Shown piece after piece: positions 9,202-22,036 of a stretch of 64,000 nt of DNA. The notes under the pieces are model-generated. The model was given only the letters and a program-made list of their open reading frames with translations, was not told the origin of the DNA and ran no database searches. Positions within the stretch are counted from its first letter, which is position 1; each line of letters starts with the position of its first letter. This DNA is from Flagellimonas oceani (GTDB taxonomy: Bacteria > Bacteroidota > Bacteroidia > Flavobacteriales > Flavobacteriaceae): contig NZ_CP049616.1 in NCBI RefSeq assembly GCF_011068285.1, forward strand, positions 4,236,001 through 4,300,000, read 5' to 3'. A program made the position numbers and the translations under genes.

Positions 9202-9954
9202 TTATAAACGTTTCATCGCCTCTATCAAATCATCTCTTTTTCTTGGTGAAATATTCACCTGCATCTCGTTGCTCATGATAAGGTGGCCTCCATCCGATTT
9301 GACATATTTTTTCACCTTTTTCAAATTGATAAGGAAGCTATTGTGCACCCGCATAAAGTTGTGTTCGGAAAGGAGCATTTCATATTCCTTTAAGTGCTTG
9401 CTCACTAAAAAAATACTTTCATCCTCCAACATAAAACAAGTGTAAGAACCGTCCGCTTTGCAGGCCACTATGTCATCAATGGCAATAAACTCCATTCCGG
9501 CGGTGGTGGCCAAGCATATTTTTTCTGGGCGCACTTTTCCACGGGAAATGCTTTGCATCAATGTGTCCAGCTGCTCTCTATAAACATTGGTGTCCATACG
9601 GTTTCTCGCTTTTTCCACCGCTTGCTGGAGTTCGTCCAGGTCTATGGGTTTCAATAAATAATCCAAGGAACTGAATTTAATGGCCTTGATGGCATATTTT
9701 TCAAATGCAGTGGTGAAAACAACTTCAAAGTTCGGGTCTTTTATTTGGTTTAGAACATCGAACCCTACACCGGATTGTAGCTCTATATCCAAAAACACTA
9801 TGTCCGGACTGTATATGGAAAGAACTTTTACAGCCTCATCTACCGATCCTGCCATTGCAATGACTTGTACCTCCTTGCAAAATTCCTCCAACATGGATTT
9901 AAGGGTCTCCCTGCTGTGTTTCTCGTCTTCGATTATTACTGCTTTTAAAATCAT
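9202..9954 (-). CDS. LytTR-family two-component response regulator
   Basis: A 250-residue regulator. The receiver domain (about residues 3-120) has the acidic pocket EDE at 9-11, phospho-acceptor Asp56 in VFLDIE, Thr81 in FTTAF and Lys102 in LLKPID. A LytTR DNA-binding domain follows (about 145-250; CKADGSYTCF, MRVHNSFLINLKKV, VNISPRKRDDL). LytTR proteins bind direct repeats of a 9-bp element with about 12 bp between them. No histidine kinase is adjacent, so it is an orphan regulator here. The downstream surface genes carry tandem sequences fitting a LytTR site (10614-10684, 11537-11572, 19152-19206, 21622-21676, 21980-22036), which makes it the likely controller of adhesin, PorP and OmpA expression. 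That link is inferred from sequence alone. Confidence 0.92.
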   Translation of the reverse strand: MILKAVIIEDEKHSRETLKSMLEEFCKEVQVIAMAGSVDEAVKVLSIYSPDIVFLDIELQSGVGFDVLNQIKDPNFEVVFTTAFEKYAIKAIKFSSLDYLLKPIDLDELQQAVEKARNRMDTNVYREQLDTLMQSISRGKVRPEKICLATTAGMEFIAIDDIVACKADGSYTCFMLEDESIFLVSKHLKEYEMLLSEHNFMRVHNSFLINLKKVKKYVKSDGGHLIMSNEMQVNISPRKRDDLIEAMKRL

Positions 9955-10613
9955 AGGGCTATTTTTAGGGGTTATTGGTTATGGCTATAATTAAAGTTGT
10001 TGTGTTCTAAACGATACCGGATTAAAAAAATAAAGGGTTTTTCTTTCAAACCTTATAGGAATTTGATTGTTTTATTTATATTTGGGAAATGGGGATGGTC
10101 TTTTTCGGTGCTATGCTGAAATCTGAGACTATCGCATAATTTTTTACTTCATTGAGACATAGGATTTTCGTTCAACAATACTATCCTAACCCAATATTTA
10201 TGTTGGTTAAGCCAACGTAAACAAAGGTTTTTTTAAATTCGTCAATATTTTATTTCTATTACTATGGTGAAAAGATATGTTTTTCACCATATTAAGTTAA
10301 ACATTTTTACGGGGGAAGAATAAATAGTGGAAAGAAAACCACTTAATTTGTCACTTTTCAGTGAAAAAATTGTTTAACCCTTTGGGTTGAGGGATTAAAA
10401 GAACTCACCATTTTTGTTCCTTATAGTAACTGTTGCGCAGCATAACCCCATACTTGCTTTCAGCTGAAGGAATTACTCATGGTGAGTTTTGTCAAAAACC
10501 TTATGAATTTTGGGCCGCACTGCCTTTATCGCCAGAACCAAAGACAAGAACATTTGTTCGTTGTGCAGCCCAGTATTCATATTTTTTCAGTTGTTAAATC
10601 TACAGTGTTCATA
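9955..10613. other. Long intergenic region with inverted repeats
   Basis: About 660 bp upstream of the LytTR regulator without a convincing gene. It holds a short hairpin (AACCC-TTT-GGGTT near 10376-10388). It also holds a perfect 10-bp inverted repeat, AACTCACCAT at 10402-10411 and ATGGTGAGTT at 10479-10488, and an imperfect one, GGGCCGCAC near 10511-10519 with GTGCAGCCC near 10564-10572. The arrangement could be a structured untranslated leader of the regulator or a small RNA. A short plus-strand frame from 10479 has no recognisable product. Confidence 0.4.
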
Positions 10614-10684
10614 GTTAATTGGTGTATGCCATTTGATGGATGGGTGTTTTGAGTTTATGAATGCCCCTTTTGAGTTAACGTAAG
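10614..10684 (-). promoter_or_regulatory. Tandem LytTR-type operator cluster A
   Basis: Read on the minus strand, three elements start every 21 bp: TACGTTAAC, TTCATAAAC and TCCATCAAA, with a fourth (TACACCAAT) out of phase. The best copy fits the LytTR consensus [TA][AC][CA]GTTN[AG][TG] at eight of nine positions. The cluster lies about 660 bp upstream of the LytTR regulator gene and just downstream of the terminator of the 11460 gene, so it may drive a transcript into the regulator (autoregulation) or an unannotated RNA. Confidence 0.5.
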
Positions 10685-10710
10685 TTTCAAAGACACTTCT
10701 TTTTAGTTGA

Positions 10711-10748
10711 AAATGGGACTCCTGTTTTAAAAGGAAATCCCATTTTTT
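10711..10748 (-). terminator. Intrinsic terminator of the 10795-11460 gene
   Basis: AAATGGGA and TCCCATTT form an eight-base stem with a roughly 20-nt interior that can pair further (CCT with AGG). On the minus strand it follows the stop codon at 10795 by about 50 bp and is followed by a short T run. Confidence 0.55.
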
Positions 10749-10794
10749 ACAACAGGAGAACACTAAAAAGATTCGTAAAAGGGCCATCAATTCA

Positions 10795-11460
10795 TTAAGC
10801 TGTATGATATAATTCTTGATGCTCGGGATATTTTGTGGTTTTCGGAAAGCACTTCTTTTTTAGGGGCATTTTGGCCACAAAGTGTCCTTTGAAATCTATT
10901 GAGGCAATATTGCTGAAATAACCTAGGATGTCCTCGTAATCGTTAATATTTATTCCCGCCTTTGCCAAGCTATTGTGCACAACCGATTTATTGACCTTAT
11001 TTTCCCAATTGCCATTGAGCCTTGTGTCATTGGACCTTATAATAAGGATTTTCAGTTTTTTTAAGTGCCAAGTTGGAACATAGAAATTGGTTACACCATC
11101 CTTTATGGATTTAAAGGTCACATACACTTTGCCCACATTTTTGTAGACTTTTGCCGTATATCCAATACTGTTGTTGCTCAATGGTAGTTTCAGGCACGAG
11201 TCATCTGATTCCAGATAAAAAAGTATGGGGTTTTTGTTGAGTACTTCTTCTGTAATTTGCGGAACATCTATCGTAAACGACCAATTGGGTAATTGCTCCC
11301 TTATATCAAAGGATAAGAGTTCCACTGTGTTGGGAGTATTCTTCCCACGGGATTCTTCGTGATCCTTTAGTGCGGAATTGGATTTGTTGATAAGATAGAT
11401 GGGATAACCTATGATTACCGTGGCACAGATCAATGTCCAAAAGATGGTCAAAAGATGCAT
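10795..11460 (-). CDS. Membrane-anchored hypothetical protein
   Basis: A 221-residue protein with one N-terminal hydrophobic helix (about residues 3-24, LLTIFWTLICATVIIGYPIYL) followed by a polar, mostly extracytoplasmic region with no lipobox. I recognise no domain. The C-terminus is basic (KMPLKKKC, KTTKYPEH). The start ATG at 11460 is preceded by a two-unit LytTR-type operator at 11537-11572 (about 75-110 bp upstream), so it probably belongs to the same regulon as the adhesin and OmpA genes. A hairpin terminator follows at 10711-10748. No function can be assigned; the real-gene call rests on length, the membrane anchor and the dedicated promoter and terminator signals. Confidence 0.6.
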   Translation of the reverse strand: MHLLTIFWTLICATVIIGYPIYLINKSNSALKDHEESRGKNTPNTVELLSFDIREQLPNWSFTIDVPQITEEVLNKNPILFYLESDDSCLKLPLSNNSIGYTAKVYKNVGKVYVTFKSIKDGVTNFYVPTWHLKKLKILIIRSNDTRLNGNWENKVNKSVVHNSLAKAGININDYEDILGYFSNIASIDFKGHFVAKMPLKKKCFPKTTKYPEHQELYHTA

Positions 11461-11536
11461 AACTTTATTTTTGATTAATAAATCGGGGACCGTTATCAGG
11501 TACTAAGTAACAAAGAAAAATAGTGGGTAAGACCCA

Positions 11537-11572
11537 TGAATATACGGATGGGGCTTTTCAATTGACGTATGA
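11537..11572 (-). promoter_or_regulatory. LytTR-type operator B (two units, 21-bp spacing)
   Basis: On the minus strand, TACGTCAAT is followed exactly 21 bp later by TCCGTATAT. Both resemble the LytTR half-element, and the interval is the classical 9 + 12 bp spacing. It lies upstream of the ATG at 11460. Confidence 0.55.
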
Positions 11573-11668
11573 AAAACCACCGATAAAATGATTGTTTTTT
11601 ACGTTGAAATACACCCGTTTTTTTCTTAAATGGACATTTTGAAGCATAAATTTGGTTTACTGCCTACC

Positions 11669-12043
11669 CTATGATGTCTTATTGGTCTTTTCCAATTGGC
11701 CGATTACGCCCATTACATCATAATTTGCAATTTTTCGTGTACTATAATTTCGTTTTATGTGGTTTACGTATGTATGGATTTCAAGAGTATAGTAGTTCTC
11801 AAGTTCAAAGACCGGATCTTTGGCGATCTCCAGACTACTGTTCACTTTCATTTTACCATAAGCTCTCGCATGGTAGACAATTTTATAGTTGTTATTATCA
11901 TTATCCATCCATTCAATGGTCACTTCAATAAAATCGTCCATGCGTTCCCTTAGTTTGTAATTCGCATGTTTGGGTATGTTTCCAAACTCATATTCAGACT
12001 TGATTAGGTCCAAAATCCATTTCTCCAGAAAATTATCCTTCAT
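11669..12043 (-). CDS. Hypothetical cytoplasmic protein
   Basis: A 124-residue soluble protein without signal peptide or membrane segment. It is rich in charged and aromatic residues (EKWILDLIKSEYEFGN, IEWMDNDNNNYKIVYHARAYG). I recognise no family. The ATG at 12043 and continuous coding character support a real gene. It lies between the lipoprotein hydrolase gene and the membrane-anchored protein on the same strand, with about 150 bp upstream. The Asn/Asp-rich loop could be a surface turn. No role is proposed. Confidence 0.5.
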   Translation of the reverse strand: MKDNFLEKWILDLIKSEYEFGNIPKHANYKLRERMDDFIEVTIEWMDNDNNNYKIVYHARAYGKMKVNSSLEIAKDPVFELENYYTLEIHTYVNHIKRNYSTRKIANYDVMGVIGQLEKTNKTS

Positions 12044-12192
12044 GTCATTTAAATTTTAGGTGTTCTGATTTTTGGTCTGCAATAGGCCAATGGTTCAATA
12101 AATTTTTAATGAGGTTGAAAAGGTTTTGGATTGTTTTTGTAGTCTTGGCTGGCCAAGACCTAGGTTCTGTACTTTAACCTTAGTTGTGAGTG

Positions 12193-13206
12193 TTATTTCG
12201 TAATGTGCAATAATGTTTTTAACCAATTAATGGCGTTTGTTCTCGCCAATTCACTTTGGTCTTTACCTTCTGTATCAAAGCCATGACCAACACCTTCATA
12301 AATATGGAGTTTTAGCGGAACACCTTTTTCTTCCAATAAATCTACCATGCACAATGTATTTTCAGTTAGGTATCCCTTTGAGGGAACCTGATACAAAATG
12401 GGGGCATAGGGCCGGTATATATTTTCTTCAAGTGCATTTTCATTACAAGGTCCTGGTCCCCAATAACCATATCCCGAGGATCCTCCATAGTAGAAAACCC
12501 CTCCGGCAAAACCATTTTCCGGTTTGGGTTGAGGTGGCTGAACTCCCGATGAGGCATCATATTTGTTCCCGTCAAAACTTTGTGTCCATTCCCAATCGGA
12601 GGGAGTTGAACCGGTATCATAGAGTGTTGCGGCCAGCGCACTGGCTCCATCGGAAAAACCAAGTAATGCAATGTCATTTGGTCTTACCAATGGCTTGCCA
12701 TTATCTAGTTTTAAGTTTTTGAGTACCTCTAAGGCCATGTTGGCATCTTTGGGGCGAACAAATTGAGAACTGATCCTGAAGTTGTCCGGAGCGTCTGTCC
12801 ATTTTCCAGTTCTCTCCTTGACATTCCTTCCCGAGTAACTGTCAACAAAAGCACCGACAATACAGTTATTGTCGAATATTTCCCGCCAATCACGATTTTG
12901 ACCGGACATTTTTCCGGTAGTTGGGTCATCGTTCGACCACATTCCACCAGAACCATGCATTACTACTACCGCAGGATAATTTTCATTATCACAGCCCTTA
13001 GGTATTGAAAGGTAAATAGGGATTTTGTCCTGTTGTATCTGGACATAGATAATCGTGTCCAACGTAGATTGCGCCATTATCACTTCCGGAGCATTTGTAA
13101 AGGGGGTAGATCCACCTTCATCCTCGCTGCAGGAGATAAAAAATATAGACGATACGGACAAAAATAGGCTAAGTTTAATAAATAATTTTGACATTGTTTT
13201 TTTCAT
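12193..13206 (-). CDS. Lipoprotein alpha/beta hydrolase, dienelactone-hydrolase-like
   Basis: A 337-residue lipoprotein: signal peptide with lipobox ending FISC (Cys26) followed by SEDE, an acidic run that suggests surface display. The alpha/beta-hydrolase core shows an oxyanion segment VVVMHGSGG near residues 80-88, the nucleophile elbow GFSDGAS, and the catalytic His in GVGHGFDTEG; the third catalytic acid is likely in VDLLEEKG. This is the layout of dienelactone-hydrolase-like esterases. It starts nine bases after the stop of the PorP/SprF gene and is probably the last gene of the adhesin operon, which is unusual for a hydrolase. It may process or anchor the adhesin or cut an ester-linked surface glycan; both are inference. 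Confidence 0.75.
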   Translation of the reverse strand: MKKTMSKLFIKLSLFLSVSSIFFISCSEDEGGSTPFTNAPEVIMAQSTLDTIIYVQIQQDKIPIYLSIPKGCDNENYPAVVVMHGSGGMWSNDDPTTGKMSGQNRDWREIFDNNCIVGAFVDSYSGRNVKERTGKWTDAPDNFRISSQFVRPKDANMALEVLKNLKLDNGKPLVRPNDIALLGFSDGASALAATLYDTGSTPSDWEWTQSFDGNKYDASSGVQPPQPKPENGFAGGVFYYGGSSGYGYWGPGPCNENALEENIYRPYAPILYQVPSKGYLTENTLCMVDLLEEKGVPLKLHIYEGVGHGFDTEGKDQSELARTNAINWLKTLLHITK

Positions 13207-13215
13207 AATTTCATA

Positions 13216-14160
13216 TTAATAAGTGCACGAACAGTTAGAAACTCCTTGGAACAAATCGATGCCCAAGGTCAAAACATGGGTACCTTTCGAGTAGCCCAGT
13301 ATCTCATTCATAATTATCTGATAAGAGTATCCAAAGTAGAAGTCTCCTTTTTTGAGGCCAATAACGGGAGCTATATATAGGGGAGAGCCAAATTGGTCGT
13401 TCAAAAATCTGTAGGTTATCCCCGCATAATAGTAATTCAGATAATCATACCATTTGAACTTGGTATTGATATCCGTTATGGACCTTCCGTCACTTTCAAA
13501 ATATTGGAAGAAAACTGAAGGTTCTATCTCAAAATCAGTTCTTGAGTTCTTTCTGAATTTATATCCGGAATACAGATAATAATTGCGTAGGGTATTAGGT
13601 TCAAAAATTGGGTTGAACTTTTCAAATTCCTTGTTAAGAATGTTAGCGGCGTTCACACTGAGATAAAATCCACCGCGTCTGTACAGTGTGCCCACATCAA
13701 AATTTGGATTGCTGGATGACCGGTCGTTAATAACGGCAGGGTCGTTGTTAGGGTCAAAGTTTTCAATATCTATCCTAAATTGGTTCAAATTAAAGGACAG
13801 GGCAAAGGAGAAATATTGGTCATCATATTTATTAAGGGTAAGGTGATGTGCAAAGGAAACCTTGCCTCCTCGTTGTTTTGTTTCACCATTCGAATCGTTA
13901 TATATCACCATTCCAATACCGGAACGGTTCCCCAATCGTACATCTGCCGATAACGATTGGGTATCCGGGGCATCCTTAATACCTACCCATTGGGTAACCC
14001 CGTTCATCCGTACTTTTACATAATCACCAATTCCTGCATAGGAAGGGGACATCACAAAAGGGTTGTCGGACAAGTATTGGGACAATTGCGGAATGGTCAG
14101 CTCTTGTCCTTTTACAAGGAACAGGTTTGTGAATATTAAGAAAACTACAACTCTCTTCAT
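13216..14160 (-). CDS. PorP/SprF family outer-membrane protein
   Basis: A 314-residue beta-barrel of the PorP/SprF family. The signal peptide (MKRVVVFLIF to VKGQE) precedes the hallmark region LSQYLSDNPFVMSPSYAGIG, then VTQWVGIKDAPDTQSLSADV. The end contains GTHVLTLGIDLF. The gene begins 13 bp after the stop of the adhesin's C-terminal segment and is probably co-transcribed, as sprF is with sprB. It is a second, diverged paralogue of the protein at 7598-8539, implying that each large T9SS cargo has its own partner. It should work in the outer membrane in export or attachment of the repeat adhesin. The closing sequence SNCSCTY has two Cys, unusual for the family. Confidence 0.9.
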   Translation of the reverse strand: MKRVVVFLIFTNLFLVKGQELTIPQLSQYLSDNPFVMSPSYAGIGDYVKVRMNGVTQWVGIKDAPDTQSLSADVRLGNRSGIGMVIYNDSNGETKQRGGKVSFAHHLTLNKYDDQYFSFALSFNLNQFRIDIENFDPNNDPAVINDRSSSNPNFDVGTLYRRGGFYLSVNAANILNKEFEKFNPIFEPNTLRNYYLYSGYKFRKNSRTDFEIEPSVFFQYFESDGRSITDINTKFKWYDYLNYYYAGITYRFLNDQFGSPLYIAPVIGLKKGDFYFGYSYQIIMNEILGYSKGTHVLTLGIDLFQGVSNCSCTY

Positions 14161-14173
14161 TTATCAATTGATT

Positions 14174-15259
14174 TTATCTATACAATGTGAAGTGCCCGAC
14201 GAATTCACGTCCAGACCCATCATTTAGTCTTGCGATGTACCAGTAATCCCCAGATGGCATAGGGTTGGAGTCATACTCGCCATCCCAAGCGTCCGATGTG
14301 CCCAAAATCTGGATCTCTCTTCCATACCGGTCAAAAATGTGCGTTTGGATATCAGGGAACAGTTCGGAATTTTTTGGAGACCAAAAGTCATTTTCCCCAT
14401 CACCATTTGGAGTGAAAAAATCCGGGATAGTGATTTCTACCAAGTTCATTGTGATACTCTTTATTGCCTCACAACCATAGCTGTCAACGACCCTTATGGT
14501 AAAACTGCCACTTCTCGTGATTGTGTAAGTGTTGGAGCTGGTTCCGCTATTCTCATCAAAGTAATAGGTGTAAGGGGCATTTCCGCCTGTAACATTTGCA
14601 GTGATTTGATTTATATACTCACTGCTTAGCGACAGCTCCAATGGGTCAAAGTTTTCAACTTCAAAGGGAATCTCTGCCAAGCAACCATTGTTGTGCATAA
14701 TGTAAAGACTATGACTGCCAGAACTAAGGTTTCCAAAATCTGGAGTTAATACGAAGTCATCTGGATTGTTAGAGTCCATCGCATAAAGCACATCATTACT
14801 GATTGATGGATCGAATAATGTTACCTCGATTGTATTTGATGGTAAGTTGTCCTCACACAAATACATGACATCTACTGTGCCACCAAGGTCTGGCCCGCCC
14901 GGTTTAATTTCAAAATTTGTATTGGTTTGGCAACCCGTGTTGTCAATTACATTCATTTGATAATTCCCAGGAGACAAATCCTCAATGGAGAAAGAATTGG
15001 TATTGAAAACTACGGGCTCCAAATTGTTAAGCTGAACCGTAACAGGTAAAACAGCGTCTCCAATTTCTACGGAAACAGAACCATTGTCGCTTTCCAAACA
15101 TGTTTCATCCTGAACATTGGTAGTAACGCTAAATCCAAGCTGTGTGCCTGCGTCGAATGTGAAGGGAGCGGAAACTGCGGTGCAGTTGTCCGTGTTCTCC
15201 GCGGTGATGGTGTAGTCGACCCCGTTGGTGCCGCCTGTGATGACCCCTCCCGCGCCCAC
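14174..15259 (-). CDS. C-terminal part of repeat adhesin with T9SS type B sorting domain (frame-separated)
   Basis: This reading segment continues the adhesin of 15779-18961 in the same absolute frame but is cut off from it by indels in the repeats. It opens at a GTG within the last 243-bp repeat copy, then carries about 250 residues of unique sequence. It ends with a gliding-motility C-terminal domain (IPDFFTPNGDGENDFW, HIFDRYGREI, WDGEYDSNPMPSGDYWY, FTLYR), the T9SS type B export and anchoring signal. On its own it has no signal peptide, so it is not a separate secreted protein. Either the frameshifts are real and the protein loses its sorting signal, or they are sequence errors and the true gene is one frame from 18961 to 14174 (about 1,595 residues). 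Confidence 0.7.
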   Translation of the reverse strand: MGAGGVITGGTNGVDYTITAENTDNCTAVSAPFTFDAGTQLGFSVTTNVQDETCLESDNGSVSVEIGDAVLPVTVQLNNLEPVVFNTNSFSIEDLSPGNYQMNVIDNTGCQTNTNFEIKPGGPDLGGTVDVMYLCEDNLPSNTIEVTLFDPSISNDVLYAMDSNNPDDFVLTPDFGNLSSGSHSLYIMHNNGCLAEIPFEVENFDPLELSLSSEYINQITANVTGGNAPYTYYFDENSGTSSNTYTITRSGSFTIRVVDSYGCEAIKSITMNLVEITIPDFFTPNGDGENDFWSPKNSELFPDIQTHIFDRYGREIQILGTSDAWDGEYDSNPMPSGDYWYIARLNDGSGREFVGHFTLYR

Positions 15260-17060
15260 GCTGCGGGGCTGGAGGTATAGGTCAGGTTCGCGTCATAGTT
15301 GGAGACCACGTTGGTGGCGTCCGCGGAGCAGCTCTCCGGTGTGACGGTTATGGCGGGGACTGCCGGTGATGGCAGCTGTGTGCCTGCGTCGAATGTGAAG
15401 GGAGCGGAAACTGCGGTGCAGTTGTCCGTGTTCTCCGCGGTGATGGTGTAGTCGACCCCGTTGGTGCCGCCTGTGATGACCCCTCCCGCGCCCACGCTTA
15501 GCCCTGCGGGGCTGGAGGTATAGGTCAGGTTCGCGTCATAGTTGGAGACCACGTTGGTGGCGTCCGCGGAGCAGCTCTCCGGTGTGACGGTTATGGCGGG
15601 GACTGCCGGTGATGGCAGCTGTGTGCCTGCGTCGAATGTGAAGGGAGCGGAAACTGCGGTGCAGTTGTCCGTGTTCTCCGCGGTGATGGTGTAGTCGACC
15701 CCGTTGGTGCCGCCTGTGATGACCCCTCCCGCGCCCACGCTTAGCCCTGCGGGGCTGGAGGTATAGGTCAGGTTCGCGTCATAGTTGGAGACCACGTTGG
15801 TGGCGTCCGCGGAGCAGCTCTCCGGTGTGACGGTTATGGCGGGGACTGCCGGTGATGGCAGCTGTGTGCCTGCGTCGAATGTGAAGGGAGCGGAAACTGC
15901 GGTGCAGTTGTCCGTGTTCTCCGCGGTGATGGTGTAGTCGACCCCGTTGGTGCCGCCTGTGATGACCCCTCCCGCGCCCACGCTTACCTGCGGGGCTGGA
16001 GGTATAGGTCAGGTTCGCGTCATAGTTGGAGACCACGTTGGTGGCGTCCGCGGAGCAGCTCTCCGGTGTGACGGTTATGGCGGGGACTGCCGGTGATGGC
16101 AGCTGTGTGCCTGCGTCGAATGTGAAGGAGCGGAAACTGCGGTGCAGTTGTCCGTGTTCTCCGCGGTGATGGTGTAGTCGACCCCGTTGGTGCCGCCTGT
16201 GATGACCCCTCCCGCGCCCACGCTTAGCGGGGCTGGAGGTATAGGTCAGGTTCGCGTCATAGTTGGAGACCACGTTGGTGGCGTCCGCGGAGCAGCTCTC
16301 CGGTGTGACGGTTATGGCGGGGACTGCCGGTGATGGCAGCTGTGTGCCTGCGTCGAATGTGAAGGAGCGGAAACTGCGGTGCAGTTGTCCGTGTTCTCCG
16401 CGGTGATGGTGTAGTCGACCCCGTTGGTGCCGCCTGTGATGACCCCTCCCGCGCCCACGCTTACCTGCGGGGCTGGAGGTATAGGTCAGGTTCGCGTCAT
16501 AGTTGGAGACCACGTTGGTGGCGTCCGCGGAGCAGCTCTCCGGTGTGACGGTTATGGCGGGGACTGCCGGTGATGGCAGCTGTGTGCCTGCGTCGAATGT
16601 GAAGGGAGCGGAAACTGCGGTGCAGTTGTCCGTGTTCTCCGCGGTGATGGTGTAGTCGACCCCGTTGGTGCCGCCTGTGATGACCCCTCCCGCGCCCACG
16701 CTTAGCCCTGCGGGGCTGGAGGTATAGGTCAGGTTCGCGTCATAGTTGGAGACCACGTTGGTGGCGTCCGCGGAGCAGCTCTCCGGTGTGACGGTTATGG
16801 CGGGGACTGCCGGTGATGGCAGCTGTGTGCCTGCGTCGAATGTGAAGGGAGCGGAAACTGCGGTGCAGTTGTCCGTGTTCTCCGCGGTGATGGTGTAGTC
16901 GACCCCGTTGGTGCCGCCTGTGATGACCCCTCCCGCGCCCACGCTTAGCCCTGCGGGGCTGGAGGTATAGGTCAGGTTCGCGTCATAGTTGGAGACCACG
17001 TTGGTGGCGTCCGCGGAGCAGCTCTCCGGTGTGACGGTTATGGCGGGGACTGCCGGTGAT
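15138..17060 (-). repeat. Eight tandem 243-bp GC-rich coding repeats
   Basis: Eight near-identical copies start at 15138, 15374, 15617, 15860, 16101, 16338, 16578 and 16821, encoding an 81-residue Ig-like unit (VPAITVTPESC, VSNYDANLTYTSSPAG, VITGGTNGVDYTITAEN, CTAVSAPFTFDAG) with two conserved Cys. Copy-to-copy distances are 236, 243, 243, 241, 237, 240 and 243 bp, so four copies carry deletions. Losses of 2, 5, 2 and 7 bp fall in one small hairpin-forming site (about 16460, 16222, 15983 and 15261), and 1-bp losses fall in a GGG run (about 16363 and 16127). The repeats are visibly much richer in G and C than the flanks. Confidence 0.95.
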
Positions 17061-18961
17061 GCGTTGATGTCCACCTTGAAACTTTCTTCATCAGAACAAT
17101 TGGGAGCCCCGCCTGTTTCATCATAAGCGTAAAGATCAATACTGCTTGTGATAATATCTCCTGGAAGATATTTTGTTCCACCGCCGCTAGGACCTCCAGA
17201 AGCATCATAATAGGCTTGATTTCCAGTAAGATTTGTGCCACTAATCATTGGAAGTTCGTAGGAATCACAAGCTGTTACACTATCAATAGGGTCGAGTATA
17301 GGGGCTTCCTGTTCATAACCAATGGTAAAAACTTCAAGATGGTTAAAGGTAACATTGTCAAAATAAACATTGTCAGCTCCATCTACACTAGTAGCGGAAA
17401 TACGGGTTATAGGCCCTGTTGTAAAGTCCCCATCGGTGTCCGTATCGATAAGAAGTTGTAAATCGCATGCGTTGGTCAAAATGTCAGAACCGGAAAGGTC
17501 TACACGAACACTTACATTAGTAATCTGGTTAGTGCCAGCGGATCGTACTGCTTGAACTCTCCATTCACGACCCAGTCTTTTAGTGATATTGAGGGGCAAT
17601 TCTGAATCTATTTCATTGATGGTGGCATCGTTATTTCCCCATATTAAATAGTTATGTCTATAGCTATAAAACGAAAAATCATCCACGTCAGTCCTTGACA
17701 GATCTAAATTATCAGTACTGAAATCATTGTTGGTAGAAATGGTAACAATGGCATCTGAATTGGCACTTTTTGAGATTCGCTGATCTTGGTTATAACGTAG
17801 ATCGATGGTCCCAGCATTTGCATTGTCGTGGTATTTATCCTTACCAATACCTGCTATGTCATGTTTATAGACTGGGTCCACCTGCCAGATAACAGTTCCG
17901 TCCGCGGCAATGTAGTTATAGCCATCATTTCCATTTATGCTTCCCAAAGGACCTCCAGCATTGAGGGTGATGCCATATTTAATGGCAAGGTAACTTTCGA
18001 CTTTCTCCCTTTCAAGAGTGCCAAGAGCAAGATCGGCCACCAAGACTTCAGCTATATCGCCTGTGAGATTCCTATTTGGATCGTTACTATTAAAATGTTT
18101 GCCCAAACGATAAAACTCAAAGAGTTCATTTCCTGCTAGGAGATGATTACGTATGTTAGAAAACTCCAAAATTCCATTGGCGTAGGCGGTCAACGTTTCG
18201 GAGCCAAGGGTTGCCGATCTTACCAATGTACCAATGGCCGGTTCTGCTTGAAGGTCAATAGTTCCACTTTGATAATAGGGGGGTCCTCCTGGCCCATCAT
18301 CACCTCTCCATGTCCTTCCCACAGATAGTGTATTACCGTCAGATATTCCAAATGAAAGGTTGGTCTTCCAATTCTCAACATTGAAGGAGCCGTGCTGTAT
18401 CTGTACATCCCCGCCAAAAAGCAATTTTTGTGTTTCTGCGGAGTTTCCAGCACCACGTGCCTTGAAAACTATAAAAACCGTAAGATTTTCACGGTTGACC
18501 ATTTTAAAATGTAGGGCTTGTCCATTACCACTGCCATCGAATTGGACAACGGGATTGAAATTGATGTTATCTGTACTGTTTCTGCGAAAAGTGGGTAGTC
18601 CGGGAATGGAGCCTGCTGGGGTGAGGAACAGGGGGTAAGTCACACCACTATTGGGCAAGTTATAGTCAAAACCATGGTTTGGGGGCGGGGCCAAGGGATC
18701 TAAACTATAATTGGCGGGCAATGGATGGGGGACCGCATTTTGTTGGGAATTGTATACAATATCGTACCAAATGTTCACAGGTGTTCCGTCCGCAGGTGGA
18801 GCTGGATTAGGATCGGCAAAGAGGATTCCGTCCGTTGGGGAATTTATCCCTTTCCCGGCTCTGAACCAAGTGTCCACTTCATCGGTCTGGGCAAATGTTT
18901 GCCCACTGATAAATAGAATGGATAGTACCGTTAACCACTTCACCGGTTTTTTGAATCCCAT
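15779..18961 (-). CDS. SprB-like repetitive surface adhesin, N-terminal part
   Basis: The start at 18961 gives a clean signal peptide (MGFKKPVKWLTVLSIL to TFAQ); an upstream ATG at 19066 would add 35 residues. An N-terminal region of about 530 residues resembles the LamG/DUF8202-type domain of T9SS proteins (DTWFRAGKGI, PVVQFDGSGN, FNSNDPNRNLTGDIAEVLV, VESYLAIKYGITLN). A linker (PILDPIDSVTACDSYELP) leads into 81-residue Ig-like repeats. Two copies read normally. Two are read out of frame in the middle and then restored, giving an Arg/His-rich stretch (RGRGRGHHRRHQRGRLHHHR). A 2-bp loss near 15983 then leads to a stop at 15779. As written, the product lacks the T9SS sorting domain encoded at 14174-15259; the repeat continuation in another frame spans 15067-15981. 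Upstream lies LytTR-type operator C. Confidence 0.75.
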   Translation of the reverse strand: MGFKKPVKWLTVLSILFISGQTFAQTDEVDTWFRAGKGINSPTDGILFADPNPAPPADGTPVNIWYDIVYNSQQNAVPHPLPANYSLDPLAPPPNHGFDYNLPNSGVTYPLFLTPAGSIPGLPTFRRNSTDNINFNPVVQFDGSGNGQALHFKMVNRENLTVFIVFKARGAGNSAETQKLLFGGDVQIQHGSFNVENWKTNLSFGISDGNTLSVGRTWRGDDGPGGPPYYQSGTIDLQAEPAIGTLVRSATLGSETLTAYANGILEFSNIRNHLLAGNELFEFYRLGKHFNSNDPNRNLTGDIAEVLVADLALGTLEREKVESYLAIKYGITLNAGGPLGSINGNDGYNYIAADGTVIWQVDPVYKHDIAGIGKDKYHDNANAGTIDLRYNQDQRISKSANSDAIVTISTNNDFSTDNLDLSRTDVDDFSFYSYRHNYLIWGNNDATINEIDSELPLNITKRLGREWRVQAVRSAGTNQITNVSVRVDLSGSDILTNACDLQLLIDTDTDGDFTTGPITRISATSVDGADNVYFDNVTFNHLEVFTIGYEQEAPILDPIDSVTACDSYELPMISGTNLTGNQAYYDASGGPSGGGTKYLPGDIITSSIDLYAYDETGGAPNCSDEESFKVDINASPAVPAITVTPESCSADATNVVSNYDANLTYTSSPAGLSVGAGGVITGGTNGVDYTITAENTDNCTAVSAPFTFDAGTQLPSPAVPAITVTPESCSADATNVVSNYDANLTYTSSPAGLSVGAGGVITGGTNGVDYTITAENTDNCTAVSAPFTFDAGTQLPSPAVPAITVTPESCSADATNVVSNYDANLTYTSSPAGKRGRGRGHHRRHQRGRLHHHRGEHGQLHRSFRSFTFDAGTQLPSPAVPAITVTPESCSADATNVVSNYDANLTYTSSPAKRGRGRGHHRRHQRGRLHHHRGEHGQLHRSFRSFTFDAGTQLPSPAVPAITVTPESCSADATNVVSNYDANLTYTSSPAGKRGRGRGHHRRHQRGRLHHHRGEHGQLHRSFRSLHIRRRHTAAITGSPRHNRHTGELLRGRHQRGLQL

Positions 18962-19151
18962 CAAAGCGTTTTGATTCTGAGATTTTTTATAGGGCTTGTT
19001 TTGCACTTGAAATAAATTCAATGCATAGGAAAAGAAACTAAGTAGAAGTTTAGTCATAAGGGTCAAGTTTTACTAAGATTTCTTGCTGAGGCCGATCAAG
19101 AAATAGATTTGGTATTATAAATTAAAGGAGTATTTAGATATAAAACAGTGG

Positions 19152-19206
19152 TGAATTTACCTATGACGGTTTCCAATTGACGGATGCCCCATTTGGATCA
19201 ATGAGT
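19152..19206 (-). promoter_or_regulatory. Tandem LytTR-type operator cluster C
   Basis: On the minus strand, TCCGTCAAT is followed 21 bp later by TAGGTAAAT and preceded 21 bp earlier by a weaker CTCATTGAT. It lies about 190-245 bp upstream of the adhesin ATG at 18961. The plus-strand core CAATTGACGGATG is nearly identical in clusters B and D. Confidence 0.55.
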
Positions 19207-19265
19207 GAAAAAAACATGTATTGCCAAAAATTTGATTTTTGTAGGATTTTACGTGTTTAAATAAA

Positions 19266-19294
19266 AGATCCGCCAAGAACCTCTTGGCGGATCT
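19266..19294 (-). terminator. Intrinsic terminator of the OmpA-like gene
   Basis: AGATCCGCCAAG and CTTGGCGGATCT form a 12-base stem around a five-base loop, followed on the minus strand by TTTATTT. It lies about 80 bp after the stop at 19377. Confidence 0.75.
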
Positions 19295-19376
19295 ACCATC
19301 CTGATTATTTAAGAACAACTGAGTTACACCAAACCTTTGCTCTAAGAATCAAATAGAAAATATGGGAAGGATGGTT

Positions 19377-21524
19377 TTATTTGATCAAATTGATCTCTAC
19401 TCGTCTATTTTGTTGTCTACCAAGTTTGGTTGCGTTAGAGGCAATTGGTTTGTCCTCTCCATAACCTATTGCAGATAATCTGCTGCCGGATATCCCTTCG
19501 TTGATCAAGAAATCGCGTACGGAGTTGGCCCTGGCTTCCGATAGGTTTTGGTTTGTGGTGTTTCTGCCAACACTATCTGTATGTCCTTCCACGGTAAACT
19601 TGGCATTTGGATATTCGTTCAATATTTGGATGATGTCGACCATTACGGAAACGGATTCTGGTTTAATGGTGGCCTTTCCGGTATCGAACAGAATGGTCCT
19701 GGCATAATCGTTCAACTGTTTTTGCACTTCGGCGGTCACTTCTGGACAGCCATTGTTGGCTATGGTCCCTGCTACTTGCGGACATTGGTCATCCACATCG
19801 GGAATGGTGTCTCCATCTGTATCCGGGCACCCATTGTATTCAATAGTGCCTGGAGTTTGCGGGCAACGATCGTTTCTGTCCTCGATTCCATCCGAGTCGG
19901 TATCGGGACAACCGTTAAATTCTTTCGGTCCTGCTACTTCAGGGCATTCATCATCCTTGTCCAAAATTCCATCCTCGTCGGTATCTTTCCATGGGCATCC
20001 GTTGTTTTCTTCCGGTCCGGCAACGTCTGGGCAGTCATCATCCTTATCCAAAACTCCGTCCGCATCGGTATCTTCCCATGGGCAACCTTGGTTTTCCACT
20101 GGCCCAGGAGTTTCCGGGCATCTGTCCTCTTGGTTGATGATGCCGTCGTTGTCCTTATCCTTTAATTTATTATGATAGATAGGAACTTTAAGTCCTGCGT
20201 ATAGATCTAAGGCTTTGGTATTTTCACCGACCAATGATGAAAGAATGGAGCCGGAACCTAAATAGATAGGCCCCAATCGTAATCCAGCTCCCCATTGGAA
20301 CGTACCTCCTTGAATGATGCTGAGTGGCGAATACACCGCCAACCATGTGGTCTCAAATCTCGGTGTAAGCCTGTATTGGTTTATAATCCGGCCAATGTTG
20401 GTACCATCTTTAGGGGTGAGTGACATATCCCCGTTAAAGTTCATGTACAATCGTCGCGTTACATTCCAATCTATGTTGGTGTGCAGTGCTGTTGGAAGGG
20501 TATAGCTCACTGCTGTTCTTTCGGATATAATGTCGAAGTTATCCACTAGTGCTTCTTCCAGTACGTCACCGTCAAAATTATCGGCATCTTGGGTTTTGTT
20601 CAAGTCATAAATTCTATCGATACCATCTACATTGCCTATGGTACCAATGTCCGTTACCGAAACACCTAACTTCACTTTATACTTGTTAACTCCACGGTTG
20701 ACCACGGTAGTACCGTCACTTTTCAATTTGGTAAATGCTTCGTGATCTGGCCTCCATTCATATACAAAGCCAAGGTCGGCCCCAATACCTGTACCTGCGT
20801 TTGCATCAAAGGCATCCCCGATGTGCCCCTGTTCATCTACTTCTCCTGTATTGCCATATCGTAGTTGGCCAGTTGTGGTTACTTCTTCGGTGGCGGAATT
20901 GTAATCCACCGAAATATCCGAACCGGTTATATATGCGTTTGCCAGTCCTTGAACATATTTAAGGGAGGCTCCACCCTTAAGAAAGTGTTCTTTGTCATCC
21001 AAGAGTACGCGGGCATACGTTGCCCCGATTTCTCCCCATGCGGTAAACGTTCCCGAAATGTCATCTTCAACCAGCGAAAAATCTTCGTTTTCGTCAAAAC
21101 CGCCTTCTTTTTCCAAAAGGTTCCCGTTGGCATCGTTAACGGAGAAAATACCTCTTCCGCGAGTAAAAATCGCGAGAGAATGTTTTTTGCTCATGCTCAG
21201 CATTACGGATGGACCCATTACATCCACGTTAAAGGCTAAAAAGTTATTGGTTGTCGGGAATGTTTCTGCGTTATCAAAAGCTTCACTTGCATTGCCAAAG
21301 GCATCGCCGAGGTTAAAGCCTAAGTAATCGTTTGCATACAATGCGCTTATGCCAAAAATGTTTACGTCCATTTTAAGGTTGGAGTCGGCAATGTTGGCCG
21401 GGTTGGAAATAATTCCATGCACACCGTTGTAATTGTCCTCCAAAAAACCAACGTACGATTGTGCGGATAGCACGTACGAGAACAAGAGTAGGACCAAGTT
21501 CAAAAAAGTATTCTTTGAAATCAT
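19377..21524 (-). CDS. OmpA-family protein with DUF5723-like barrel and TSP3 repeats
   Basis: A 715-residue envelope protein from the ATG at 21524, giving signal peptide [22 protein letters not shown]; upstream ATG codons would add an implausible polar leader. The N-terminal 440 residues look like a DUF5723-type outer-membrane barrel ([27 protein letters not shown]). About five thrombospondin type-3 calcium-binding repeats follow ([31 protein letters not shown]). The last 110 residues are an OmpA domain ([45 protein letters not shown]) that binds peptidoglycan. It should tether the outer membrane to the wall, and related proteins support surface-motility machinery. Two LytTR-type operator clusters (D and E) lie 100-510 bp upstream. 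Confidence 0.9.
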
Positions 21525-21621
21525 GTTTTTTAATTTTAAGACCTGCATAGTGCAAGGGTTATCAATTATTTTATTTTGAATCAATTCCAAAGAGAATACT
21601 TATTAATGGATTTTGAAGGGG

Positions 21622-21676
21622 ACAATGGATGGATGCGGGTTTTGAATTGACGGATGGGGCAGTTGAGTTTATCTAG
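21622..21676 (-). promoter_or_regulatory. Tandem LytTR-type operator cluster D
   Basis: On the minus strand, TAGATAAAC, TCCGTCAAT and TCCATCCAT occur at exact 21-bp steps; the central copy is the best. It lies about 100-150 bp upstream of the OmpA-like ATG at 21524. Confidence 0.55.
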
Positions 21677-21979
21677 GTTTTTGAAACAGCTTATTTTTTA
21701 TGAAATCCGGGGTTGAAACAGCAGATAGGGCGAAGACGATTCTTACCTGAAAATACCTTTAAAGAGGGCTAGTGCAAAAACAAAAAACCATTACGACCAA
21801 GGAACTGTAGCAGCTCCTTGGCGTAACGGAAACCTCAACTAAACTAAACACTTTTATGACCAACAGTCGTCAAAAGTGAATTGCTATATGTGCATGCGTT
21901 AAAATTGATCTTGCTTTTCAATTATTATTAACGTCTGATTGCACAACAAACATAAAATCAATAATTGAGATTTTAGGGG

Positions 21980-22036
21980 ACCAATTAACGAATGCCCCTT
22001 TTGAACCAATGAATGGCCCTTTTGAATTGAGGGATA
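21980..22036 (-). promoter_or_regulatory. Tandem LytTR-type operator cluster E
   Basis: On the minus strand, TCCCTCAAT, TTCATTGGT and TTCGTTAAT occur at exact 21-bp steps with C-A-AAAGGG-type spacers. TTCGTTAAT fits the LytTR consensus well. It lies just after the YegP-like gene's terminator and about 460-510 bp upstream of the OmpA-like ATG. Confidence 0.55.

Follow-up and report, generated by a model that had tools for sequence, protein, structure and literature searches.

The operators of LytTR activators consist of a pair of 9-bp direct repeats just upstream of the promoter, in most cases with 12 bp between them (PMC6193735, PMC4227749). For Bacteroides, a comparative study likewise predicted direct repeats as the sites of AraC-type hybrid regulators (hybrid two-component systems, HTCS), with tandem sites 21 bp apart on average; the layouts given as examples combine 16-bp sites and a spacer of 5 bp, or 12-bp sites and one of 9 bp (PMC3878776). 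On the promoter side, the flavobacterial sigma-A consensus box occupies positions -12 to -5 (PMC9723704 and PMC6847099) and the -33 element is generally weak in Flavobacterium johnsoniae (PMC6847099). Here we analyse a 64,000-nucleotide stretch of Flagellimonas oceani (hereafter the window; C1:4236001-4300000 of a 4.61-Mb genome in one contig, C1), in which an earlier note had described five intergenic clusters of repeats and proposed them as operators through which an orphan LytTR regulator controls surface and motility genes. We find that these clusters are part of a genus-wide regulon built on tandem operators, which combines surface lipoproteins, probable small RNAs and a rigid promoter geometry.

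Sites, geometry, gene direction, conservation and the co-occurrence of the distal site with RNA-2 (see below) were computed directly. The search pattern consisted of two 13-mers (SARTYRAYGDATG) with 8 N between them, at most three mismatches being allowed; it was derived from the window clusters, and the rest of the genome served as an independent test. In the window it gave nine matches, all of them within the five clusters (A to E), where shuffled sequence gave a mean of 0.01 and 0/100 shuffles reached nine. All five were found where the earlier note had placed them, on the minus strand and with repeats at 21-bp steps. Since lone 13-mers are at background (77 versus 81.7 expected), the signal resides in the 21-bp pairing. 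The layout of roughly 9-bp direct repeats with about 12 bp between them, which is the rule for LytTR operators, is seen in both the window and the genome matches; as the conserved unit, however, the bare 9-bp core of the earlier note has to give way to 13 bp plus two spacer patches, one AAA and one G/C-rich. The clusters are noncoding and lie upstream of surface genes, as had been noted, but A and E, on the minus strand, directly precede RNA-like elements and not protein genes.

Across the whole genome, the pattern matched 69 times, compared with 4 times for the reversed pattern, and 60 of the matches lie outside the window; with at most two mismatches there were 47 matches (7 in the window) versus 0 for the control. 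The 69 matches group into 51 clusters of two or three units each. In 49/51 clusters, going by our ORF-based gene calls (ORF, open reading frame), the nearest gene on the TCCGTCAAT-reading side is transcribed away from the site, and the gap between site and gene, counted by hand, is at most 100 bp in 40 of these 49. The earlier note was correct in its observation, and the site family is larger than it described.

Alignment of 49 sequences on the end of the gene-proximal unit revealed a TAnnTTTG-like -7 box that begins at +28, with T at +28 in 32 sequences, A at +29 in 34, T at +32 in 46 and T at +33 in 46. The dinucleotide TT stands at +32 in 44/49; elsewhere in the alignment it averages 5.9 per offset and never exceeds 17. 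With near-duplicates removed, 38 of 43 distinct promoters have it at +32. The proximal 13-bp unit stops 27 bp ahead of the box; with the box at -12 to -5, the unit would span about -52 to -40. The sites are just upstream of the core promoter, as with LytTR activators (PMC6193735, PMC4227749), and the rigid offset between unit and box, by analogy, would suit activator-dependent promoters. When a relaxed matrix was combined with the box and applied to 511 kb of the genome, consisting mostly of stretches chosen for holding sites, 49 matches, one of them new, were obtained versus 3 on the reversed sequence.

The targets are rich in surface lipoproteins and outer membrane proteins, which bears out the earlier view of a regulon ahead of surface genes. 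A Pfam scan of the 48 genes that come first after a site identified BspA-like DUF285 proteins that also have cadherin or TIG domains, proteins of the Big_2/TIG type and collagen-like ones; many of these begin like lipoproteins. Outer membrane barrels, SH3 and leucine-rich-repeat proteins, two HTH_18 regulators, an alpha-2-macroglobulin-like protein and a ComM-like ATPase were found as well, and many of the genes had no Pfam match. By crude lipobox and secretion rules, applied to targets within 250 bp of a site (paralogs included) and to background genes from four control stretches, 22/45 targets are lipoprotein-like versus 6/64 background genes (p 4e-6), and 29/45 versus 21/64 are lipoprotein-like or otherwise secreted (p 0.001). 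As to the motility part of the proposal, no Pfam motility family occurs in the 48 first genes, but a PorP/SprF-family gene lies further along the run behind cluster C, and the regulon may thus have a motility part. The gene for the ComM-like Mg_chelatase ATPase (L056:2438-3973, C1 near 1766056) has its site 83 bp upstream.

Two of the window clusters are followed by structured elements, RNA-1 and RNA-2, that are probably small RNAs, judging from folding and conservation. RNA-2 was examined at the ompA loci: of 26 full-length loci of the Flagellimonas type, some of them from metagenome-assembled genomes, all but L262 were used, and of 15 loci from other genera all but L285. The distal site (cluster E) and the RNA-2 core (TTTAGTTTAGTTGAGGTTTCC, conserved in 23/25 loci among L249-L274) occur together in 23 of the 25 Flagellimonas-type loci and are both missing from the other two, and neither is found in the 14 other-genera loci (0/780 shuffles). 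The folding of RNA-2 beats all 200 shuffles (z -5.0), a T run follows its hairpin in 21/24 aligned sequences (it is absent in L259, L261 and L264), and the 3' hairpin shows pairs in which both sides have changed (5/40 predicted pairs). RNA-1 lies between cluster A and the window LytTR gene, which are 676 bp apart. A site and the RNA-1 core (GCAAGTATGGGGTTATGCTGC) were found upstream of the LytTR ortholog in 5/20 other genomes examined (L448, L455, L456, L458 and L465), and the core was found in L264 at 7385 as well.

Neither RNA matched an Rfam family at gathering score (none in the window; the matches obtained were weak and below the cut-offs), a simple terminator scan reported neither hairpin, and pairing with the start regions of target genes gave no signal (RNA-2 p 0.41, RNA-1 p 0.97), ompA not rising above shuffles. 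Behind the site at C1:2104220 (L063:3519-3612, minus strand, E 1.1e-4), a covariance model picked up a related element, mostly through an RNA-2-like 3' hairpin; because antisense hairpin matches are nearly as good (E 1.7e-4), this third candidate is a weak one, and 2/200 shuffles fold equally well. Structured and conserved small RNAs, Rfp18 among them, are also described for F. psychrophilum, which belongs to this family too (PMC9723704); the main text of that source contains neither LytTR nor direct repeat as words.

The system is one of Flagellimonas, and species of the genus differ strongly in how large it is. At no more than two mismatches, the pattern was present in 68 of 71 genomes of the genus set (Flagellimonas/Muricauda/Allomuricauda), with 0 to 47 matches each, and a survey of the family, with one genome for each of 149 genera, found the regulon only in our own genome, with 47 matches. 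When the best site per genome was taken (n=29), TT was at +32 in 25/29 and TA at +28 in 12/29; by tblastn, a homolog of an own-genome target lies in 22/29 of these loci (3 kb), adjoining the site in about 19 by reading. At the ompA loci, the proximal site (cluster D) with a TCTCTTTG-like box in place was found in 24/25 Flagellimonas-type loci and in 0/14 from other genera. Features of the window are collected in Table 1.

Table 1. Features of the window discussed in the text, in window coordinates.
Feature	Positions	Strand	Basis
Orphan LytTR response regulator gene; argued here not to be this regulon's regulator	9202..9954	-	Pfam
RNA-1 candidate, about 178 nt, two hairpins, weak terminal T run	10395..10572	-	Folding (z -3.8), conservation
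-7 box TAGATTTA, at +28 from cluster A	10595..10602	-	Sequence
Site cluster A, with the 13-bp unit in three copies at a 21-bp step	10630..10684 (10614-10684 in the earlier note)	-	Pattern match
Gene for a 221-aa product, no Pfam match; lies 78 bp behind cluster B	10795..11460	-	ORF and Pfam scan
Site cluster B, two units, TTACTTAG at +28	11538..11571	-	Pattern match
Run behind cluster C: hydrolase-like gene	12193-13206		
Run behind cluster C: PorP/SprF gene	13216-14160		
Run behind cluster C: CHU_C gene	14174-15259		
1095-aa gene without Pfam match, signal-peptide-like start, heads the run behind cluster C	15779..19066	-	ORF and Pfam
Site cluster C, two units plus a third, weak one, TTAATTTA at +28 (19118-19125)	19153..19207	-	Pattern match
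Outer membrane protein gene (DUF5723-OmpA), probably starting with the ATG at 21524	19377..21524	-	Start read from translation
Site cluster D, ompA-proximal, TCTCTTTG at +28 (21588-21595)	21623..21677	-	Pattern match, locus comparison
RNA-2 candidate, about 165 nt, ends in hairpin 21787-21832 and T run	21780..21944	-	Folding, conservation
-7 box TATGTTTG, at +28 from cluster E	21947..21954	-	Sequence
Site cluster E, three units, ahead of RNA-2	21982..22036	-	Pattern match, locus comparison

Taken as a whole, these features are best explained if the tandem units are activator binding sites ahead of about 50 sigma-A promoters, a reading that, on sequence grounds, we consider very probable. We infer protein binding, activation and RNA production along the following lines. 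An activator would sit on one face of the DNA, on two or three units that are 21 bp, or two helical turns, apart; it would do so directly upstream of the core promoter and aid sigma-A RNA polymerase at about 50 promoters. Besides surface lipoproteins and outer membrane proteins, the genes served would comprise two of AraC-type regulators and those of at least two small RNAs, RNA-1 and RNA-2, to which the weaker candidate at C1:2104220 would add a third. As to the family of this activator, LytTR and AraC-type regulators are about equally likely.

In the first case, which we regard as quite possible if short of probable, the regulator would be a LytTR protein other than the one encoded in the window, such as the L040 two-component pair (C1:4104733-4106445; its neighbour is a His_kinase) or the orphan L041 (C1:1836662). 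The 9+12 bp layout and the place of the sites upstream of the core promoter are like those of LytTR activators; AgrA repeats are centred near -60 (PMC6193735, PMC4227749), the Flagellimonas units at about -56 by our own count. Half-sites of LytTR Regulatory Systems, however, are mostly ACCxxTTAx-like in the tables of PMC6193735. Here they are different, the unit measures 13 bp, and conservation extends into the spacer, beyond what a bare 9-bp core would show. Our own genome holds 13 LytTR genes. Set against the LytTR consensus, TCCGTCAAT fits at all but one informative position; by our estimate, a fit this close would arise at some place within a 21-bp unit with a chance of about 0.3, and it is not significant when placements are counted. 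Furthermore, no promoter-proximal site was found at any intact LytTR gene in the 707 kb of LytTR and related loci that were scanned for autoregulation, in which our system differs from described LytTR systems; at a pair score of 20 the same loci yielded only three sites, namely the window cluster (676 bp ahead of the gene), one close upstream of a broken window-type LytTR remnant in genome G187, and one in L239 that points away from L040.

Of the two named LytTR candidates, L040 has orthologs (at least 59% identity) in 54/71 genomes, and these have more matches than the other 17 (p 1.2e-4, not corrected for descent). Genomes without L040 nevertheless keep sites, which weakens it as sole regulator: TT is still at +32 in 6/6 of their best sites (G164, G168, G169, G170, G172 and G174), drifted sites are present at ompA, and the closed genome G186 has 14 matches. 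In L041, a LytTR domain is accompanied by a receiver match that falls short of the Pfam cut-off. It is faster-evolving than most LytTR groups, with 73-95% identity in 7/9 genus genomes (it was unseen in the partly covered G156 and G186) and 52-64% in 23 other genera.

The regulator might equally be an AraC-type (HTH_18) protein, perhaps one of the regulon's own, and we put this forward as a tentative alternative. L054 is a 569-aa protein with a C-terminal HTH_18 domain (C1:1575953-1577662), and L068 a 215-aa HTH_18 protein behind the site at C1:3279749. The tandem 21-bp step with units of 12-16 bp is the operator rule of AraC-type and HTCS regulators, and in Bacteroides thetaiotaomicron the HTCS/AraC-type regulons have predicted direct repeats with an average of 21 bp on the same DNA face, as here (PMC3878776). 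By contrast, the B. thetaiotaomicron HTCS serve polysaccharide loci that include the regulator gene, and here the targets are dispersed surface lipoproteins and RNA-like elements; nor is the usual HTCS setting found, as none of the 48 first genes matches SusC/SusD families in Pfam (genes further along an operon were scanned within the window only). The operators themselves have an AAA patch ahead of the 13-bp core. Patch and core together may be compared with the two-box half-site of AraC. Sites lie 58 bp upstream of L054 and 51 bp upstream of L068, and a site is retained for an L068 homolog in G179, although being a target of the regulon does not make either protein its regulator.

The distribution of the two proteins points both ways. 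All L054 homologs of at least 37% identity that carry a genus name are from Flagellimonas, Muricauda or Allomuricauda, the next identity being 30%, but homologs at 43-48% also occur in two genomes without site matches (G187 and G157). Similarly, among the best 120 of 179 matches, those high-coverage L068 homologs that carry a name come from this genus, but L068-like DNA-binding domains at about 60% occur outside it (Spongiimicrobium, 55% coverage).

Several observations weigh against reading the units as activator sites of a Flagellimonas regulon. At the promoters, TA is at +28 in just 21/43 distinct sequences, and a -33 element is missing, its TTG being present in 0 to 2 of 49 at the spacings tested. 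Because the -33 element is weak in F. johnsoniae generally, its absence is no strong sign of an activator, and we do not claim that the site replaces it. As to placement, 2/51 clusters fall inside ORFs, and the gene calls follow a rule of our own. Three members of the genus, G156, G157 and G187, have no match at up to two mismatches. Outside the genus, 148 other genera did not go beyond chance (8/148 with one or two chance-like matches, 4 with control matches), as judged from one genome per genus and with a pattern close to the consensus of our own species. A relaxed scan of 400 kb from the sister-genus genome G050 gave 18 matches versus 2 on reversed sequence at score 12, 9 versus 1 at 14 and 5 versus 0 at 16, and drifted sites may therefore exist there. 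The same scan of 400 kb of G187 gave 6 versus 2 at score 14 and 3 versus 0 at 16; no match in either genome reads as a full site. G187 is not wholly site-free, since a drifted site with TATGTTTG lies just upstream of a broken, window-type LytTR remnant (L200).

A further point on this side is that the units could be repressor operators, or sites of another family (OmpR-like, for example), given that 21-bp tandem binding is not unique to the two families considered and that the sign of regulation could be either. We think this improbable, as a site that lies upstream of the core promoter in one rigid phase, and stops short of the -7 box, suits an activator. That the clusters are a dispersed repeat of the REP (repetitive extragenic palindrome) kind without regulatory role is very improbable indeed: there are about 50 copies, some near-identical ahead of paralogous lipoprotein genes, but their placement is directional and at a fixed distance from the -7 box, 43 of the 49 promoter sequences are distinct, and the distal site and RNA-2 go missing together.

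Returning to activation from tandem sites, a more far-reaching version, which we hold to be doubtful, would have an activator peculiar to Flagellimonas, perhaps of AraC type and acting on its own gene, command a lipoprotein coat together with new small RNAs; two of the RNAs would share a similar 3' hairpin, and operators and RNAs would drift fast with the geometry fixed. The literature matches listed included no published description of this motif or regulon, and no paper joining Muricauda and LytTR was found in the literature search. For this marine genus, the analysis yields a list of targets, a rule for its promoters and two candidate RNAs, by which its surface regulon becomes directly testable, and it cautions that a 21-bp direct repeat in Bacteroidota is not LytTR by default.

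In the case of the window's own orphan LytTR gene, the link to the regulon drawn in the earlier note did not hold up: site-rich genomes lack the gene or have it in broken form, its presence bears no relation to the number of sites, and it is unlikely to be the regulator. Genome G167, with 40 matches, has no ortholog (best relative 41%), and G188, with 36, keeps just the LytTR part, joined to ompA-barrel-like sequence. The mean number of matches is 13.2 in genomes with the gene and 12.0 in those without (p 0.50), where 50/71 were sorted as intact and the 21 without it include partial matches, one contig-end case and a few incomplete assemblies. LytTR sets are only partly covered in G156, G157, G186, G168, G023, G045 and G101, in which a missing ortholog is weak evidence. 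In several relatives, the upstream neighbour of the ortholog reads, by eye, as a LytS-type kinase. Two LytTR remnants were also seen, L189 (G188:C1:822900-824700) in frame with barrel-like sequence and L200 (G187:C1:1441900-1443700) behind a drifted site, and their sequences suggest deletions between the ompA and LytTR genes. Counts of LytTR genes differ as well: G156, G157 and G187, which are without strict matches, have 24-27, four site-rich relatives have 8-14 and our own genome 13, with counter-examples in G186 (24 genes, 14 matches) and G168 (21 genes, 8 matches).

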